Positions 6,143 to 41,703 of a DNA stretch of 41,703 bases are shown here, one piece after another. This DNA comes from an uncultured Opitutia bacterium (GTDB lineage Bacteria > Verrucomicrobiota > Verrucomicrobiia > Opitutales > Opitutaceae). The stretch is taken from the NCBI GenBank assembly GCA_903869665.1, contig CAIPZZ010000258.1, positions 1 to 41,703 of the forward strand, read 5' to 3'. The position numbers were made by a program, and so were the translations under genes. The first letter of the stretch is position 1. Each line of letters opens with the position of its first letter. The notes under the pieces were generated by a model. That model did not search any database and was not told where the DNA came from. It was given only the letters and a program-made list of their open reading frames with translations.

Positions 6143-7126
6143 TCAGGCTTCCACCGCGCGCTCAAGCATATTGAGGCCGTCCATCGCGGTGAGCTCCGGG
6201 CGCGAACCCAGAAGTTGTTTGATGAAGCGGAAGGGCCGGGCGATGCGTTCGTTAATCCAAGGGGCCTGGGTGTCGAAGCTCGCGAACGCCTCTCCTTGGT
6301 AGAGGTTGCGGCGGATGGAGTGGATCGCGTGGAGAAAATCTTCGCGCGGCACGGTGACGTTGAGCCCGTCGAGGGGCGCGGTGACGGTGTCGCCGACGCA
6401 GACCAGCTCCAAGTAGGCGGCGTAGGGATTTGCGATCGCAGTGTTCTTCTGCTGGTCGAGCGGGTTGATGATGCGGAAGGTGAGGAGCACGTTGCGGATG
6501 CCGGCGGTGGCGTCCTGCCGGCTTTGGAGAAACGGGTCCTGCGAGAGGCCAGCCTTCACGATCTCGTTTTTCAACTGCACGTCCTCGGCGATGAGCTGAC
6601 GGTGCAGCGTGAGCATGTCCAGCAACCCGTCGGCGAGCAGCGTGTGAAACGCCGCGAAGAACAATGGCTCGCGGACGTGCAGGCGGTCGAGCAGCGCGCG
6701 CACGTCGCCGGGGTCGCGCACGAGGCCGGCGGTGACCTCGCCGCGCGCGTGCAGCTCGGCGAGCTGTTTCGCCGCGCGGTGGGGCGCGGCCGACGCGAGC
6801 ACGTCGTGGATGAGCGCCTGCTGCGCGGGCGACACGGGGCGGATTTCTCCAGCGCAGAGCTTGGCGACATCGTCGAGCCAGTGGACGGCGTCGGCGCGCG
6901 CGGCGGTGTCCACATAGAAAAGCGTCCAGCCCTCGTCCTCCGACTGCCCGGCATGGTGAGCGAACGGCGCGTCGCGCAACAGGGTGCGGGCGATCTCGTC
7001 GCCCGCGACATCCGCCGCCTCGACGGCGAACAGCAGCCAGCAGTCCGGCGCGATCTCGGCCTGGCCGCCGTGGTCGCGCAGTTGCGGACCAAGGAAACGG
7101 AGGGCGGCGGGCAGGTCGGGTGGCAT
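6143..7126 (-). CDS. hypothetical protein
   Basis: Long uninterrupted frame; likely start at MPPDLPAALRFLG (7126) rather than 7186. No family recognised. Confidence 0.6.
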   Translation of the reverse strand: MPPDLPAALRFLGPQLRDHGGQAEIAPDCWLLFAVEAADVAGDEIARTLLRDAPFAHHAGQSEDEGWTLFYVDTAARADAVHWLDDVAKLCAGEIRPVSPAQQALIHDVLASAAPHRAAKQLAELHARGEVTAGLVRDPGDVRALLDRLHVREPLFFAAFHTLLADGLLDMLTLHRQLIAEDVQLKNEIVKAGLSQDPFLQSRQDATAGIRNVLLTFRIINPLDQQKNTAIANPYAAYLELVCVGDTVTAPLDGLNVTVPREDFLHAIHSIRRNLYQGEAFASFDTQAPWINERIARPFRFIKQLLGSRPELTAMDGLNMLERAVEA

Positions 7127-7207
7127 GGGTGATCTGAAGAATGGAGAAAGGGAGAAAGGAGCAGGGTGGCAACTCCCGCCCGACACGCGGCGGGTTGCAC
7201 TCGGCCA

Positions 7208-7792
7208 TCATCTCACCGCCTTGATTTCCTCCCAGAGCACGCCGAGGCCCATGCGCTCCAGCCACGGGGCCAGCGCGGCCTCGTCCACGCCGGTGACTTC
7301 CCGGATCGCGCGGATGTCGGCGGGATGCTTCGCCGAGCGGCCTTCGCGCCAGAACTCCAGCTTGCGCAGCACGACATATTCCGGCGGGGCCACGGCGATC
7401 TCCACGCCCTCGGCCCAGCGCAGACGGCGGCGTAGCGGCATCGCCCACGCGTGCAAGGGGTCGGCCCCAGTCAGGTAGATGTCCGCCTTGTAGCCGCTTT
7501 CGTGGTGGATGAGGTTGAAATGCCCGCGCTGGTTGCGGGCCTGCTCTGCGCGGATGACGGACTCTGGCGGCACATAAAATTCCGTCTCAGGAAACGCGCG
7601 CAGCAGGGCGGCACGGGAGGAGTCATCAAGCGTGAGCACGACATCGAGGTCGTTGGTCAGCCGGGGCTGGCCGTAGAGAATCGCGGCGGTCGCGCCGGTC
7701 ACCATGTAGGGCGCGCCGATGGCCTCCAGGCGGACGGCAAACAGGCTCAGCTCATCCGGTGGCGGCATGGAGGATGCGGTCGGCCACGGCAT
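7208..7792 (-). CDS. nucleotidyltransferase, AbiEii/MenT-like (toxin candidate)
   Basis: GATAAILYGQPRLTNDLDVVL matches the nucleotidyltransferase-fold GxxAxxxxGxxRxTxDxD pattern. The start may be the internal Met at 7768; either way it overlaps the upstream small ORF. Confidence 0.7.
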   Translation of the reverse strand: MPWPTASSMPPPDELSLFAVRLEAIGAPYMVTGATAAILYGQPRLTNDLDVVLTLDDSSRAALLRAFPETEFYVPPESVIRAEQARNQRGHFNLIHHESGYKADIYLTGADPLHAWAMPLRRRLRWAEGVEIAVAPPEYVVLRKLEFWREGRSAKHPADIRAIREVTGVDEAALAPWLERMGLGVLWEEIKAVR

Positions 7793-35882: not shown

Positions 35883-37391
35883 TCAGGCGCGGATGCCTTG
35901 GGCGAGATGGTAATACACCTCGTTGTTGCGGAGATCCTGCTTGAGCGCGGGGAGCGTTGTATCGTCGTTGATGACGACGGTCTCGATGCCGGCGATCGTG
36001 GCGAAGTCCTCGAGCATCTCGGTGGTAACCGAGTAGCTGTAGCCCGTGTGGTGGGCGCCGCCGGCGTAGATCCACGCGGCGCAGGCGGTCTTGAAGTCGG
36101 GTTTGCACTCCCAGACGGCGCGGGCGACGGGGAGCTTCGGCATGGCGGGAACCTTCACGGCTTTCACCTCGTTGACGAGCAGGCGGAAACGGTTGCCGAG
36201 ATCGATCAGCGAGGCGTTGAGGGCGTCGCCAGTGGCGGCGTCGAACACGAAGCGCACGGGGTCTTCTTTGCCGCCGATACCGAGCGGGTGAATCTCGACC
36301 TTGGGTTTGCTGGCCGCGATGGTCGGGCAAATCTCGAGCATGTGCGCGCCAAGGACTTGGTGGCCCTTGGGCGAGAGGTGGTAGGTGTAGTCTTCCATGA
36401 ACGAGGTGCCGCCGGGCAGTCCGACGTTCATCACTTTCATGGCGCGGACGAGTGCGGCGGTCTTCCAGTCGCCCTCGCCACCGAAGCCGTAGCCCGCCGC
36501 CATCTGGCGCTGGGTGGCCATGCCGGGGAGCTGGCGCAGGCCGTGCAGATCCTCGAAGGTGTCCGTGAAACCCTTGTAGCCGCCGTCGGCGAGGAACTTC
36601 GCCAGCGCGAGGTCGAGCCGGGCGCTGTAACGCAGCTCATCGTGGCGCTTGCCGCCTTTTTTCAGGACGGGGGCAACGGCATACTGCTTCTCGTAGTCGG
36701 CGCAAAGGGCGGAGATGTCGGACTCCTTGACCGCTTTGACGACCTCGACGAGATCGCCGACGCCGTGCGTGTTGACGGCGAAGCCCAGCTTCATCTCGGC
36801 GGAAACCTTGTCGCCCTCGGTGACGGCGACTTGGCGCATGTTGTCGCCAAAGCGCACGAACTTCGCGCCCTGCCAATCGTGCCAAGCACGGGCGGCACGC
36901 TGCCAGGCACCGATGCGTTCGTGCACCTCGGGGTCGGACCAATGGCCGACGACCACCTTGCGGCCGAGGCGCATGCGCGTGTGGATGAACCCGGCCTCGC
37001 GGTCGCCGTGGGCGGCTTGGTTGAGGTTCATGAAGTCCATGTCAATCGTGCCCCACGGTAGGTCGCGGTTGAACTGGGTGTGCAGATGCAGGAAAGGCTT
37101 CTTCAGCACGTTGAGGCCGCGAATCCACATCTTGGACGGCGAGAATGTGTGCATCCACAGGACGAGGCCGGCGCAGTTGGCGTCGTTGTTGGCCTCGAGC
37201 ATGACGTTGGTGATCTCGTCTGGCGTGGTGAGCAGGGCTTTGAAGACGGTCTTCAACGGCAGCTGCTTCGACGCGGCCAGCGAGTCGGCGACGTGTTTGG
37301 CATTGGCGGCGACCTGCTTGAGCGGGCCGGGGCCGTAGAGGTGCTGCGAACCGCAGACGAACCAGATTTCGGGGGAGGCGAGGAGTTTCAT
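35883..37391 (-). CDS. araA: L-arabinose isomerase
   Basis: [38 protein letters not shown]...[12 protein letters not shown]-type region [20 protein letters not shown]; start corrected to 37391. Confidence 0.96.
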
Positions 37392-37708
37392 AGGAAAATG
37401 GGAGCCGCCGTTGGCGGCGATGGACACAGATTTGTTTCCCGCTCGCTGCCCTCCGTGGCAAGCGCATTCAGCCCCGCGCGCTCCGTCCCCGGGCACCAAG
37501 CCGCGCGGATGGCGCACGTTCGCCCTGCACGCAAACGGGGCTTGTGCCGCAACTCCCGTCGGGCAAATTCGCCGTCCATGGCCCGCCGCCCATCGCTCCG
37601 CGCCCGGTGTCACTCCGCCCGTTTCGCGCGGAGGAGCCATTCGTTGGGTCGGGGTAAAAGCGACGTGGTAACGCTTGTTTTGAAAGGCTGCAGACCGGAC
37701 TTGACTCC

Positions 37709-38482
37709 ATGAAAAGCGAGAAACAAAGCACTGCCTTAATCGTCCCATGCTACATAAAGTCGCAGTGGGACATTGAGTGCCTTGTTAGATTGTGCGGTAG
37801 CATCCAGCGGCAATCGCAGCCTTTCGATAAGGTCTATCTGGTGGATGACGCGAGCCCGCTAAAATATGAGGTTCACCCCAATTTTATTGAGCACATTTTT
37901 CTCGGCGAGAATGGTGGACCAGCGAGAGCCAGAAACGTCGCGATAAACAAGGCAATCAGTTCGGGCGCGCAATACCTTATGTTCACCGACCACGATTGCA
38001 TTTTAGACCCGAACTGGAACAAGGAGATGTCTTCATTTCTGGCGGCCACAGAGTTTGGAGCCGTCGGCGGCATGACTTATTCGTGGGGAAAAACACTGCT
38101 CGACCGCTATCACGATCTCAATGGGACGCTGGCGGGCAAATGGCTGCTGCCCGAGCGGAAAGAGCTGTGGTATATGCCCTCGCTCAACTTCGGAATGAAA
38201 AGGCAGGTCGCGGAACAATTCCCGTTCGACGAAAGATTCCCGACGGCGGCGGGAGAAGACGTGGATGTTTGCCTGCGCCTGCGCAGCAAATACAAGATCG
38301 GCTTTTGCGAACGCGCGAAGCTGTGGCACGACTACGGCTACAAAAACTCCGTTTCCGGCTTCAGCAAATTTCTCAAGCTGTTTAAAAAATACAAAAGCTC
38401 CAGTGCGACGGTTTACGAAGGGCACACGGTATTGATGTGGGATGCATCGGAATCCATCTACGAAGGAAACATGAAACCATGA
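37709..38482 (+). CDS. GT2-family glycosyltransferase
   Basis: [43 protein letters not shown]...[38 protein letters not shown]. Confidence 0.9.
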
Positions 38483-39501
38483 GCCTGATCTACAAACGCA
38501 GCGCCAACCAGCCGAGCCTGACCCATGTGATCCATGATTATTTGGGCGAAATGCGTCCGTTCGCGAAGCGGGTGGGGAATCCGCTTTTGATCGCACCGAT
38601 GCTGGTCCTGAAGTCGCTGGAATGGAGCATTTACAGATGGTATAAAACTCCCATCAGGAGATTTTACGGCGTCAAGGGGAATGAGTTGATTTACATGATT
38701 ACCAACGCTTGCAATGACCGCTGCCCCAAGTGCGGGATTTGGGAAAGGCCGGAACCCAGCGACCAGCACTTGATGATCTCTCATTTCATCAACTGCCTGC
38801 GGCGGCTGCATCACAATCTGTATCAGGTAACCCTGACCGGCGGTGAGCCCTTGCTTTTCAAAAGGGACGTGATGCAGATCGCCGAAGAAGCGAAGAGTTT
38901 GGGCGTGCCGATGGTGACGGTCACTAACGCCAGACTGGTCGACGAGCCTTTCCTGAAGCGATACAAGGAACTGGGGCACATCCTTGTAATTTCCGTGGAT
39001 TCGGTTGAGCGGCAAAAATGGAACGAATTCCGCGGGAGGCAAAACTTCGACCTCGTCTTCCCAAGGATCATGCTGGCGAAAGAGATTTTGGGCGACCAGT
39101 TGAGGATTCAATCCGTGCTTTCCCAGGAGTCAGCCGAGGAAATCCCCAAAGTCGTCGCTTGGTGCAAGCAGCAGGGGATTCAGCACAACACCCAACTCTA
39201 TCAGGACTTCGGAGCTTACAACTGGCACAATAAGGTTTCCGAGCAGGCGATGGTGGACGATGGCACGCCGTGCGCGGCGAGAAAAAACATCTGTATTTAT
39301 CCGAACGGCGACGTGGTAAAGTGCTTTGACCACCGCAGAATTCCACTCGCCAAGGAACCGCTGGGCAACATCGCCAAGCAGGACATCATCGAAATTCTCT
39401 GCACGAAGCGTTCTACCGAAATCTCAAAAATCATGAAGACCTGCAATTTCCCCTGCAAAAATATGTCGTGCAACAAACCCCAGACACTTTTGTTCAACTG
39501 A
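38479..39501 (+). CDS. radical SAM protein with SPASM-like C-terminus
   Basis: ITNACNDRCPKCGIWE (CxxxCxxC), TLTGGEPLLF; C-terminal CAARKNICIYPNGDVVKCFDHRR...LGNI...CNFPCKNMSCN. ATGA overlap with the GT2 gene. Confidence 0.92.
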   Translation: MSLIYKRSANQPSLTHVIHDYLGEMRPFAKRVGNPLLIAPMLVLKSLEWSIYRWYKTPIRRFYGVKGNELIYMITNACNDRCPKCGIWERPEPSDQHLMISHFINCLRRLHHNLYQVTLTGGEPLLFKRDVMQIAEEAKSLGVPMVTVTNARLVDEPFLKRYKELGHILVISVDSVERQKWNEFRGRQNFDLVFPRIMLAKEILGDQLRIQSVLSQESAEEIPKVVAWCKQQGIQHNTQLYQDFGAYNWHNKVSEQAMVDDGTPCAARKNICIYPNGDVVKCFDHRRIPLAKEPLGNIAKQDIIEILCTKRSTEISKIMKTCNFPCKNMSCNKPQTLLFN

Positions 39502-40025
39502 TGCAAGCTAAGCCGAGCGACATCATCATTCTGCGCGGTGCACCCGGTTCCGGCAAATCGCAGACCGCAAAAAGCCTGTCGCAGTTATTTCCCAGGGGCG
39601 TGAGACTGGAGGTGGACACGATTCGCCAGATGGTCGTTGCGGTGGATTGGAAGAACCAACAGGAGCACATCACGATGCTCCAAGTGGCTGCCGGTTTGGC
39701 TTGGGATTTCCTGCGACGTGGCTTTAGTCCGGTCATGGTGGTTGACACGTTTAGCGGCGACAAAATTTTCGGGTTTATGGATCGAATCCACCACTTCGAC
39801 AGCAACCTCACAATCAGTGTATTCGGGCTGTTCACGACTGAAGATGAATTGGAACGGCGATTGGCACTGCGTCAACATGGAGAGTTCAGAGATGTCGCAA
39901 TCTCCAAAAAGCTAAACAGCGACCTACTCAAAATAAGGCAAGAAGCGGAAACACTAATAGACACAACGGGGCTATTGCCCGCAGAGACGGCGCGTAAAAT
40001 TTACGAAAGCATGGCTGGGCGATGA
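39501..40025 (+). CDS. P-loop kinase/ATPase (AAA_33/zeta-toxin-like)
   Basis: IIILRGAPGSGKSQTAKSLSQLF (Walker A), VRLEVDTIRQM; TGATG overlap with the radical SAM gene. Confidence 0.8.
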   Translation: MQAKPSDIIILRGAPGSGKSQTAKSLSQLFPRGVRLEVDTIRQMVVAVDWKNQQEHITMLQVAAGLAWDFLRRGFSPVMVVDTFSGDKIFGFMDRIHHFDSNLTISVFGLFTTEDELERRLALRQHGEFRDVAISKKLNSDLLKIRQEAETLIDTTGLLPAETARKIYESMAGR

Positions 40026-40087
40026 TCTGCTATGGCACCCCCTGAAACACTTCGGCCTGCCGAACCAGAAAGACGTCAAAGATGGCG

Positions 40088-41703
40088 TCACCGCCGACAA
40101 GATTCCTTGATGGTCAGCAGTTGCTTCATCACGCCGCCGAGGTCGGCGGATTTGTTGCGGCCGCCGAGGCTGTCGTGCAGCTGGCGGTAGAGGGTGTAGA
40201 GCTCGTTGTAGGTTTTCTGCGCGGCGGCCTTGGGCTTGTAGGCGACTTTTTTGAGGGAGGTCATCTTCTTCTGCGCGGTGGGGAAGTCCGGGTGAGCGCC
40301 GGCGAGGACGGCGGCGCTGACGGCCGAGCCGAGCGCACAGGCTTGCGAGGAACCGGCAACGAGCATCGTGCAGCCGGTGATGTCGGCGTAGATCTGCATC
40401 AGGAGGGGGTTTGTCTCGGCGATGCCGCCGGCGCAGACGACGCGGTTGATCGGCACGCCGTATTCCTTGATGCGCTCGATGATGGCGCGAGCGCCGAAGG
40501 CCGTGGCCTCAATGAGCGCGCGATAGATCTCGGCTTGGGTCGTGTAGAGCGTCTGGCCGACGAGCAGGCCGGTGAGGCGCTGGTCAACGAGGATGGTGCG
40601 GTTGCCGTTGTTCCAGTCGAGGGCGAGCAAGCCGCTCTGACCGGGCGACAGTTTCGCCGCTTCGGCGGTCAACTTGGCGTGGAGTTTGGCGTCGCCGAGG
40701 ACGCCCTCGACGAACCACTTGAAGATGTCGCCCACCGCGCTCTGGCCAGCCTCAATGCCGTAGAAGCCGGGGAGGATCGCACCCTTGACGATGCCGCAGA
40801 TGCCCGGGATGTCGGGAACGGTCTTGGCGGCGGAGACCACGCCGCAGTCGCAGGTGGAGGTGCCGATGACCTTGACGAGCGTGCCCTCGGCGACGCCGCA
40901 GCCGATGGCGCCGTAGTGAACGTCGAACTCGCCGATGGCGATCGGGATGCCGGCGGGTAGGCCGAGCTTCTTCGCCCACTCGGGCGAGAGATTGCCGGCG
41001 GACTCGCTGGCGTCGTGGGCTTTGTCGTAAAGGCGGTCGCGGAGCGCGGCCAGTTTCGGGTCAAGCAAGGCGAGAAACTCCTTGTCGGGCAGGCCGCCCC
41101 AGTCGTCGGCGTAGAGGGCCTTGTGGCCGGCGGCACACACACCGCGCTTAACGGCCTTGGGGTCGGTGACGCCGGCGAGCTGGGCGGGCACCCAGTCGCA
41201 GAGCTCGACCCAGGAGTAGGCGGCGGAGAAGGCCTTCGGGTCGGTGTTGAGGCAGTGCCACAGCTTGGCCCAGAACCACTCAGAGGAATAGGTGTTGCCA
41301 CACTTGGCGATAAAGTGCGGGCTGTGCTGCGCCGCCAGCTCGGTGATCTTGGCCGCCTCGCGCCAGCTGGTGTGGTCCTTCCAGAGCCAGCACTGGGCGT
41401 TGAGGTTCTTGGCCCATTTTTTGTCGGCAGCGAGGGCGCGGTTTGAGGCGTCCACGGGGATCGGGCTGGAGCCGGTGGAGTCCACGCCAAGGCCGATGAC
41501 CTTGGCGGCAGAGAAGCCCTTTTGCTTCTTCGCTTGGGCGAGGGCACCTTTCACCGATTTTTCGAGGCCGAACAGGTAGTCGCCGGGGTGTTGGCGGGCG
41601 ACGTTGTGGTCGCGCGGGTCGAGCATCACGCCCTGCGTGCCGCTGGGGTAGTTGACGACGCAGGAGCCGAATTCTTTGCCGTCCTTGCAGCGCACGACGA
41701 GGG
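40088..41703 (-). CDS. araB: ribulokinase, truncated by window edge
   Basis: VIGLGVDSTGSSPIPVDASNRAL...GTSTCDCGVVSAAKTVPDIPGICGIVKGAILPGFYGIEAGQSAVGD...VCAGGIAETNPLLMQIYADITG; frame open to 41703. Confidence 0.95.
   Translation of the reverse strand, partial: LVVRCKDGKEFGSCVVNYPSGTQGVMLDPRDHNVARQHPGDYLFGLEKSVKGALAQAKKQKGFSAAKVIGLGVDSTGSSPIPVDASNRALAADKKWAKNLNAQCWLWKDHTSWREAAKITELAAQHSPHFIAKCGNTYSSEWFWAKLWHCLNTDPKAFSAAYSWVELCDWVPAQLAGVTDPKAVKRGVCAAGHKALYADDWGGLPDKEFLALLDPKLAALRDRLYDKAHDASESAGNLSPEWAKKLGLPAGIPIAIGEFDVHYGAIGCGVAEGTLVKVIGTSTCDCGVVSAAKTVPDIPGICGIVKGAILPGFYGIEAGQSAVGDIFKWFVEGVLGDAKLHAKLTAEAAKLSPGQSGLLALDWNNGNRTILVDQRLTGLLVGQTLYTTQAEIYRALIEATAFGARAIIERIKEYGVPINRVVCAGGIAETNPLLMQIYADITGCTMLVAGSSQACALGSAVSAAVLAGAHPDFPTAQKKMTSLKKVAYKPKAAAQKTYNELYTLYRQLHDSLGGRNKSADLGGVMKQLLTIKESCRR

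Follow-up and report, generated by a model that had tools for sequence, protein, structure and literature searches.

The window analysed here, a 41,703-nucleotide stretch of DNA that forms contig 258 of a fragmented genome, carries three plus-strand genes (positions 37709-40025) lodged between araB and araA of the host's arabinose operon and antisense to both. The first (37709-38482) encodes a GT2 glycosyltransferase of 257 amino acids, assigned by domain match and an alignment of 24 orthologues; the second (38479-39501) a radical SAM/SPASM-like enzyme of 340 amino acids, assigned by domain matches and alignment; and the third (39501-40025) a small P-loop kinase of 174 amino acids, assigned by domain match, alignment and a structure model. 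The genes are knitted together by two plus-strand overlaps, an ATGA at 38479-38482 joining the GT2 and radical SAM genes, a pair that overlaps in the other loci too, and a TGATG at 39499-39503 joining the radical SAM and kinase genes. Thus the radical SAM gene runs from an ATG at 38479 to a TGA at 39499-39501, and the kinase gene from a conserved ATG at 39501 to a stop at 40025; a longer kinase reading frame opening at a GTG at 39468 was rejected because alignment of the orthologues places the conserved start at 39501. Both minus-strand neighbours belong to the host operon: araA (L-arabinose isomerase, 35883-37391, with its ATG at 37391) is intact, as is the C-terminus of araB (ribulokinase, 40088-41695), which in relatives is directly followed by araA. 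What remains on either side is not cassette DNA, neither the stretch from the araA start to the GT2 gene (37392-37708), which shares no DNA similarity with other loci outside genes, nor that between the kinase and araB stops (40026-40087), in which no attC-like site was detected.

An initial annotation of this DNA had described the three-gene layout, both overlaps and the antisense position between araA and araB, all of which the sequence bears out, together with a composition richer in AT than the surroundings: GC content is 0.51-0.54 (~52%) over 37.75-40.0 kb, against 0.63-0.69 to the left and right of it. It had also held that the genes were inserted into the arabinose operon and had suggested comparing the araA-araB spacing in relatives. 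In the 14 relatives with both genes at the locus, 9-490 bp separate the araB stop from the araA start and the cassette is absent; given these uninterrupted pairs and the intact ara genes of the window, the insertion is derived, not ancestral. A search of the window for terminal repeats or target-site duplications returned chance-like matches only. On the plus strand beyond the kinase (40026-40115), one frame reads LWHPLKHFGLPNQKDVKDGVTADKIP, a possible remnant of a former neighbour gene.

The three genes are one unit. Scanning 85,462 prokaryote species with the radical SAM protein found 34 loci, with radical SAM identities of 58-90% over near-full-length matches. Wherever the contig reaches far enough to be testable, the GT2 gene lies directly upstream of the radical SAM gene (33/33 loci) and the kinase gene directly downstream (29/31), with constant order and strand. 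At two closely related archaeal loci, a Methyltransf_24 protein fills the kinase slot directly after the radical SAM gene (L032:8966-9460 and L033:8981-9460), and the genome of the latter holds a second copy of the cassette with a kinase (L041). The association ends at the borders of the trio: DNA similarity between the window and the other loci stops at the gene borders, and an all-against-all comparison of flanking reading frames of at least 60 amino acids yielded no further neighbour family common to more than three of the 34 loci. Genetic distances in any one of the three proteins track those in the other two (r = 0.56-0.75; Mantel, 0 of 1000 permutations for each pair), and their sequences indicate that all three genes are under purifying selection, with pN/pS of 0.04-0.23 in eight ortholog pairs, most of them near saturation in synonymous divergence. 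Contiguous orthologues in many phyla and pN/pS values in this range place the observation far beyond chance. The initial annotation had suggested a neighbourhood search for conserved co-occurrence, with a trio never found together elsewhere as the contrary outcome; in the counts above, the genes go together wherever this could be tested.

Carriers fall in at least seven bacterial phyla (Verrucomicrobiota, Bacteroidota, Chlorobiota, Planctomycetota, Myxococcota, Pseudomonadota in the form of Magnetospirillum molischianum, and candidate LCP-89) and, among the archaea, comprise Methanoperedens and relatives as well as one Euryarchaeota MAG. Within this breadth the unit is sparse. It occurs in one of 390 Verrucomicrobiota genomes sampled, which is the window's own, and in none of 347 Bacteroidota besides the centre genome of that sample; among 94 relatives of the window's host at the level of genus, family and order, no orthologue of the radical SAM protein was found, the weak matches being 25-37% identical with partial coverage. 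A tree does not keep the phyla together, and the unit moves horizontally between phyla and domains, as the word 'mobile' in the initial annotation had anticipated. Most carriers are MAGs, so that single placements could be binning errors; the pattern overall is not contamination, since the cassette lies on contigs with core neighbours (the ara genes here; dihydroxy-acid dehydratase and 2-oxoacid dehydrogenase acyltransferase at L013) and in the complete genome of Anaeromyxobacter oryzae (L040). Plasmid and phage collections yielded no orthologues. Three sets of more distant matches were set aside: radical SAM proteins of Bacteroidota with weaker similarity (E = 1e-22), which by their neighbours appear to be of MoaA or other types and thus provide no intermediate family; a 24% match on a plasmid of S. 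cattleyicolor, which appears to belong to an unrelated RiPP-like locus; and a 31% GT2 match in Gloeothece, which lies in a generic glycosyltransferase region.

Several Bacteroidota show how the unit travels: there it is, or once was, mobilised as an integron gene cassette with an attC-like site at its end. At three loci (L016, L019 and L025) the cassette sits among repeats of ~134 nt that follow genes and share their orientation. On the bottom strand these repeats fold in the manner of attC sites: an R-box stem that includes GTAAC/GTTAC is followed by a spacer that stays unpaired, one extrahelical base and a long stem formed by the L box, with a tip that varies. R and L boxes that complement each other, the spacer and the extrahelical base are present at each of the three loci, where the unit itself ends in such a site. 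A covariance model recovered sense-orientation sites on all three (seven on L019, three on L025 and two on L016) and scattered attC-like arrays in 8 of 15 carrier genomes tested. The left edge is equally sharp. In L016, L019, L024 and L025 it falls exactly at G|TTACCGGC, a G|TT junction, to the left of which the DNA is unrelated (22-40% identity) and to the right of which it is similar (56-97%); the left arm TTACCGGC complements the right-hand GCCGGTAAC, the relation predicted if recombination has divided an attC. The unit so bounded holds the three genes only, with ~55 nt before the GT2 gene and its end at the kinase. Since a scan for AAC...GTT hairpins separated attC from background only by way of the repeats, claims are limited here to repeat-supported sites and exact junctions. 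By the covariance model, neither the window nor its genome holds an attC, and no G|TT edge could be detected in the window.

The integron integrase model TIGR02249 gave no match in the attC-bearing carriers at E = 1e-40, gaps in the MAGs being a possible reason, and matched only three of 29 carriers overall (G456, G458 and G468). With no IntI found to go with them, the arrays of the attC-bearing carriers are most fittingly termed CALINs. Scattered attC-like arrays with no detectable integron integrase were noted in Bacteroidota and Chlorobiota MAGs (G462, G466, G475, G478 and G479). Beside the attC-like edge at two loci, in opposite orientations, lie group II intron-like ends (TCGAGTAGGC / GCCTACTCGA; L024:2490-2610 and L038:370-450), identified on visual inspection by a stretch resembling domain V.

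In all three enzymes the catalytic residues are invariant or nearly so across the orthologue alignments. The GT2 protein matches Glycos_transf_2 (E = 1e-11), and its metal-binding DHD (residues 94-96, positions 37988-37996) and GED (residues 182-184) are preserved at that level among the 24 orthologues; its best NCBIfam match is MftF (TIGR03965), at 54 bits with a cut-off of 280. The radical SAM protein matches Radical_SAM (E = 1.5e-13) and SPASM (E = 3.6e-5), and retains invariantly a CX3CX2C motif (C78, C82 and C85; positions 38710-38733), a GGEP motif and five C-terminal cysteines (C265, C282, C322, C326 and C331), preceded by a conserved N-terminal helical extension of ~65 amino acids. It resembles MoaA, viperin, SuiB and BlsE in sequence and, in a model too poor for assigning a substrate (pLDDT 60), in fold, with SuiB and SkfB among the best structural matches of that model; it scores 59 bits against the viperin model NF038283, for which the cut-off is 180, and 60 bits against PADLOC pVip. 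The enzyme forms a discrete family. The kinase matches AAA_33 (E = 2e-10) and carries a Walker A motif GAPGSGKS (positions 39537-39560) with invariant D39, R42, R120 and R124; its structure model (pLDDT 91) predicts a gluconate-kinase/chloramphenicol-phosphotransferase fold.

A link to sugar supply, not foreseen in the initial annotation and the strongest lead on function, emerges from three loci (L018, L031 and L037) in which a UXS1-type UDP-xylose synthase (UXS) gene is fused to, abuts or overlaps the cassette; L031 adds genes for GalU and UDP-glucose dehydrogenase. Human UXS1 is the best PDB match of all three linked genes (E = 2e-61, 2e-56 and 2.5e-23, the last for a 70-amino-acid end). 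Overall, 28 of 29 carrier genomes have a UXS, the window's own on contig 1, and G468 is a carrier in which no canonical UXS was detected. Co-occurrence alone is weak evidence, as the gene is common anyway, with a background rate of 39/149 in the phylum of Methanoperedens, 132/199 in Bacteroidota and 80/90 in the window's order. At the same threshold, a UXS lies elsewhere in the genome of 25 of the 26 unlinked carriers and no second one in the three linked genomes (Fisher p = 0.001), the latter all being MAGs (G461, G472 and G477), of which a more sensitive search leaves the absence clear in G461 and G477 only, G472 encoding another SDR that is 38% identical to a canonical UXS. From this genomic linkage and complementarity with UXS we infer that the GT2 enzyme uses UDP-xylose as its donor.

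Taken with the structure of the unit, these observations suggest a self-contained mobile cassette of three enzymes for the UDP-xylose-dependent glycosylation of a common acceptor, followed by radical modification and phosphorylation, a reading to which we assign a probability of about one half. The host's own UXS, or one brought along, would provide UDP-xylose, from which the GT2 enzyme would transfer xylose or a derived sugar to an acceptor that every host has; next, the radical SAM/SPASM-like enzyme would remodel acceptor or sugar, and the kinase, whose slot a methyltransferase occupies at the two archaeal loci, would phosphorylate a hydroxyl of the product. Precursor peptide, transporter and regulator are all missing from the unit, so that its enzymes probably act on a molecule commonly found inside cells. 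More tentatively, and with the odds somewhat against so specific a statement, this would be an undescribed stand-alone system of GT2, radical SAM/SPASM-like enzyme and sugar kinase that spreads among bacteria and archaea in the form of an integron-type cassette, depends on UXS, and either adds to a universal cellular molecule a phosphorylated modification derived from xylose or produces a nucleotide-like metabolite that bears xylose, possibly against phages.

The last of these purposes is compatible with xylose chemistry and amounts to an account in its own right, in which the cassette would be an anti-phage or conflict system that yields an altered nucleotide or nucleotide sugar, following the viperin-like logic of a radical SAM enzyme coupled with a kinase, or that alters some molecule of the host on which phages depend. 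It would suit a unit that is rare, patchy, mobile and cross-domain and whose radical SAM core is close to the viperin and MoaA folds, and the surroundings offer some encouragement: a protein with GmrSD_N and Schlafen domains in the adjoining cassette of the L019 array and, from raw neighbour listings, type I restriction-modification near L016 and L046 and AbiEi (two members), a PD-(D/E)XK nuclease and AAA_21 among the neighbours. The radical SAM protein nevertheless reaches only 59 of the 180 bits required of a viperin and bears a SPASM-like Cys-rich tail, and the unit has neither effector nor sensor. A defence role is plausible as a lead only, with a chance we would put at rather less than one in three. 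Fainter still is the prospect that the unit is a fragment of a surface polysaccharide pathway (O-antigen, capsule or exopolysaccharide) adding a xylose-phosphate decoration. The adjoining UXS genes in three loci and the GalU and UDP-glucose dehydrogenase genes of L031 would fit, but the neighbours at most loci are unrelated or core genes (ara here, the pair named above at L013), recurrent flippases, polymerases or other glycosyltransferases are absent from 119 flanking proteins and from the neighbour clusters, and the mobile unit has no membrane export component. The initial annotation had allowed for an ancestral arrangement within a known O-antigen or capsule cluster; the flanks hold no such recurrent cluster.

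Maturation of a RiPP, mycofactocin-like or other, in which the SPASM enzyme would modify a peptide encoded elsewhere and the GT2 enzyme glycosylate it, draws on MftF as best NCBIfam match of the GT2 protein (54 bits) and on SuiB and SkfB among the best structural matches of the radical SAM protein. The MftF score is nonetheless a fraction of its 280-bit cut-off, no RRE or PqqD-like partner was seen, and no reading frame, small or large, is common to the surroundings of the cassettes, where a search for a precursor through shared flanking frames and DNA similarity found nothing. Furthermore, with only ~55 nt upstream of the GT2 gene and the kinase at its end, the attC-bounded unit could not accommodate a precursor gene, which argues against a co-carried RiPP precursor and for a substrate provided by the host. 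On these grounds, and with viperin scores as far below their cut-off, the RiPP-like leaning of the initial annotation finds no support, and we consider such a role improbable. Equally improbable is a minimal small-molecule pathway of nucleoside- or aminoglycoside-like type with the kinase or methyltransferase as self-protection: the resemblance of the kinase to chloramphenicol phosphotransferase and a tunicamycin-resistance protein, its replaceability by a methyltransferase and the weak similarity of the radical SAM protein to BlsE speak for it, and are offset by the absence of an exporter and a scaffold-forming enzyme and by a BlsE similarity no better than that to MoaA or viperin.

The cassette has partial counterparts among known systems. 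Mycofactocin likewise pairs a SPASM-type radical SAM enzyme (MftC) with a GT2 enzyme (MftF), to which that of the cassette is weakly related, but the cassette adds a small kinase, shows no equivalents of MftA, MftB, MftD or MftE, and carries no precursor within its mobile unit. Like the cassette, prokaryotic viperins (pVip) have a MoaA/viperin-like core, a mobile, patchy distribution and, in some cases, a kinase next door; the cassette differs in its SPASM-like C-terminal Cys cluster, its ~65-amino-acid N-terminal extension, its GT2 partner, a kinase of gluconate-kinase type and scores far below viperin cut-offs. With integron gene cassettes and CALIN arrays, including those of archaeal integrons (PMC9668308), it has in common attC-like sites with the canonical bottom-strand fold, the G|TT junction, co-oriented genes and presence across phyla and in archaea, and it departs from them as a three-gene operon of 2.3 kb, with no integrase found in the attC-bearing carriers and no attC at the window copy. 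A term search pointed to gentamicin biosynthesis (PMC12689558) as a pathway that brings UDP-xylose and radical SAM enzymes together; the cassette differs from it in having three genes only, a transferase of GT2 type and no aminocyclitol or scaffold genes. The literature searched, which took in few subscription papers, contained no description of the trio of GT2, radical SAM enzyme and kinase.

The cassette fits no family tested, and it carries a testable metabolic prediction, that of UDP-xylose. It is also a precisely bounded mobile unit, an example of an integron cassette of operon size whose genes occur in archaea as well. From Bacteroidota, Verrucomicrobiota, Planctomycetota and Proteobacteria to archaea, its radical SAM protein keeps an identity of 58% or more, yet far fewer than one percent of the genomes sampled have the unit; to be so similar across phyla while so rare, it must bring its hosts a benefit that is portable and worth retaining. 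Individual copies show signs of wear. The GT2 gene of the closest relative's cassette is split by an IS3-type insertion (L013:6195-7656, with an integrase-core-like reading frame at 6435-7484), the radical SAM gene of Magnetospirillum molischianum has an in-frame TAG (L026:2350-3372), and the GT2 gene of Anaeromyxobacter oryzae is apparently frameshifted (L040:7259-7995); these last two isolate genomes may hold decayed copies. At a further locus (L037:279-755), the first part of the GT2 gene is overlapped by a second radical SAM reading frame, which is truncated and matches the family profile at E = 1.4e-28.
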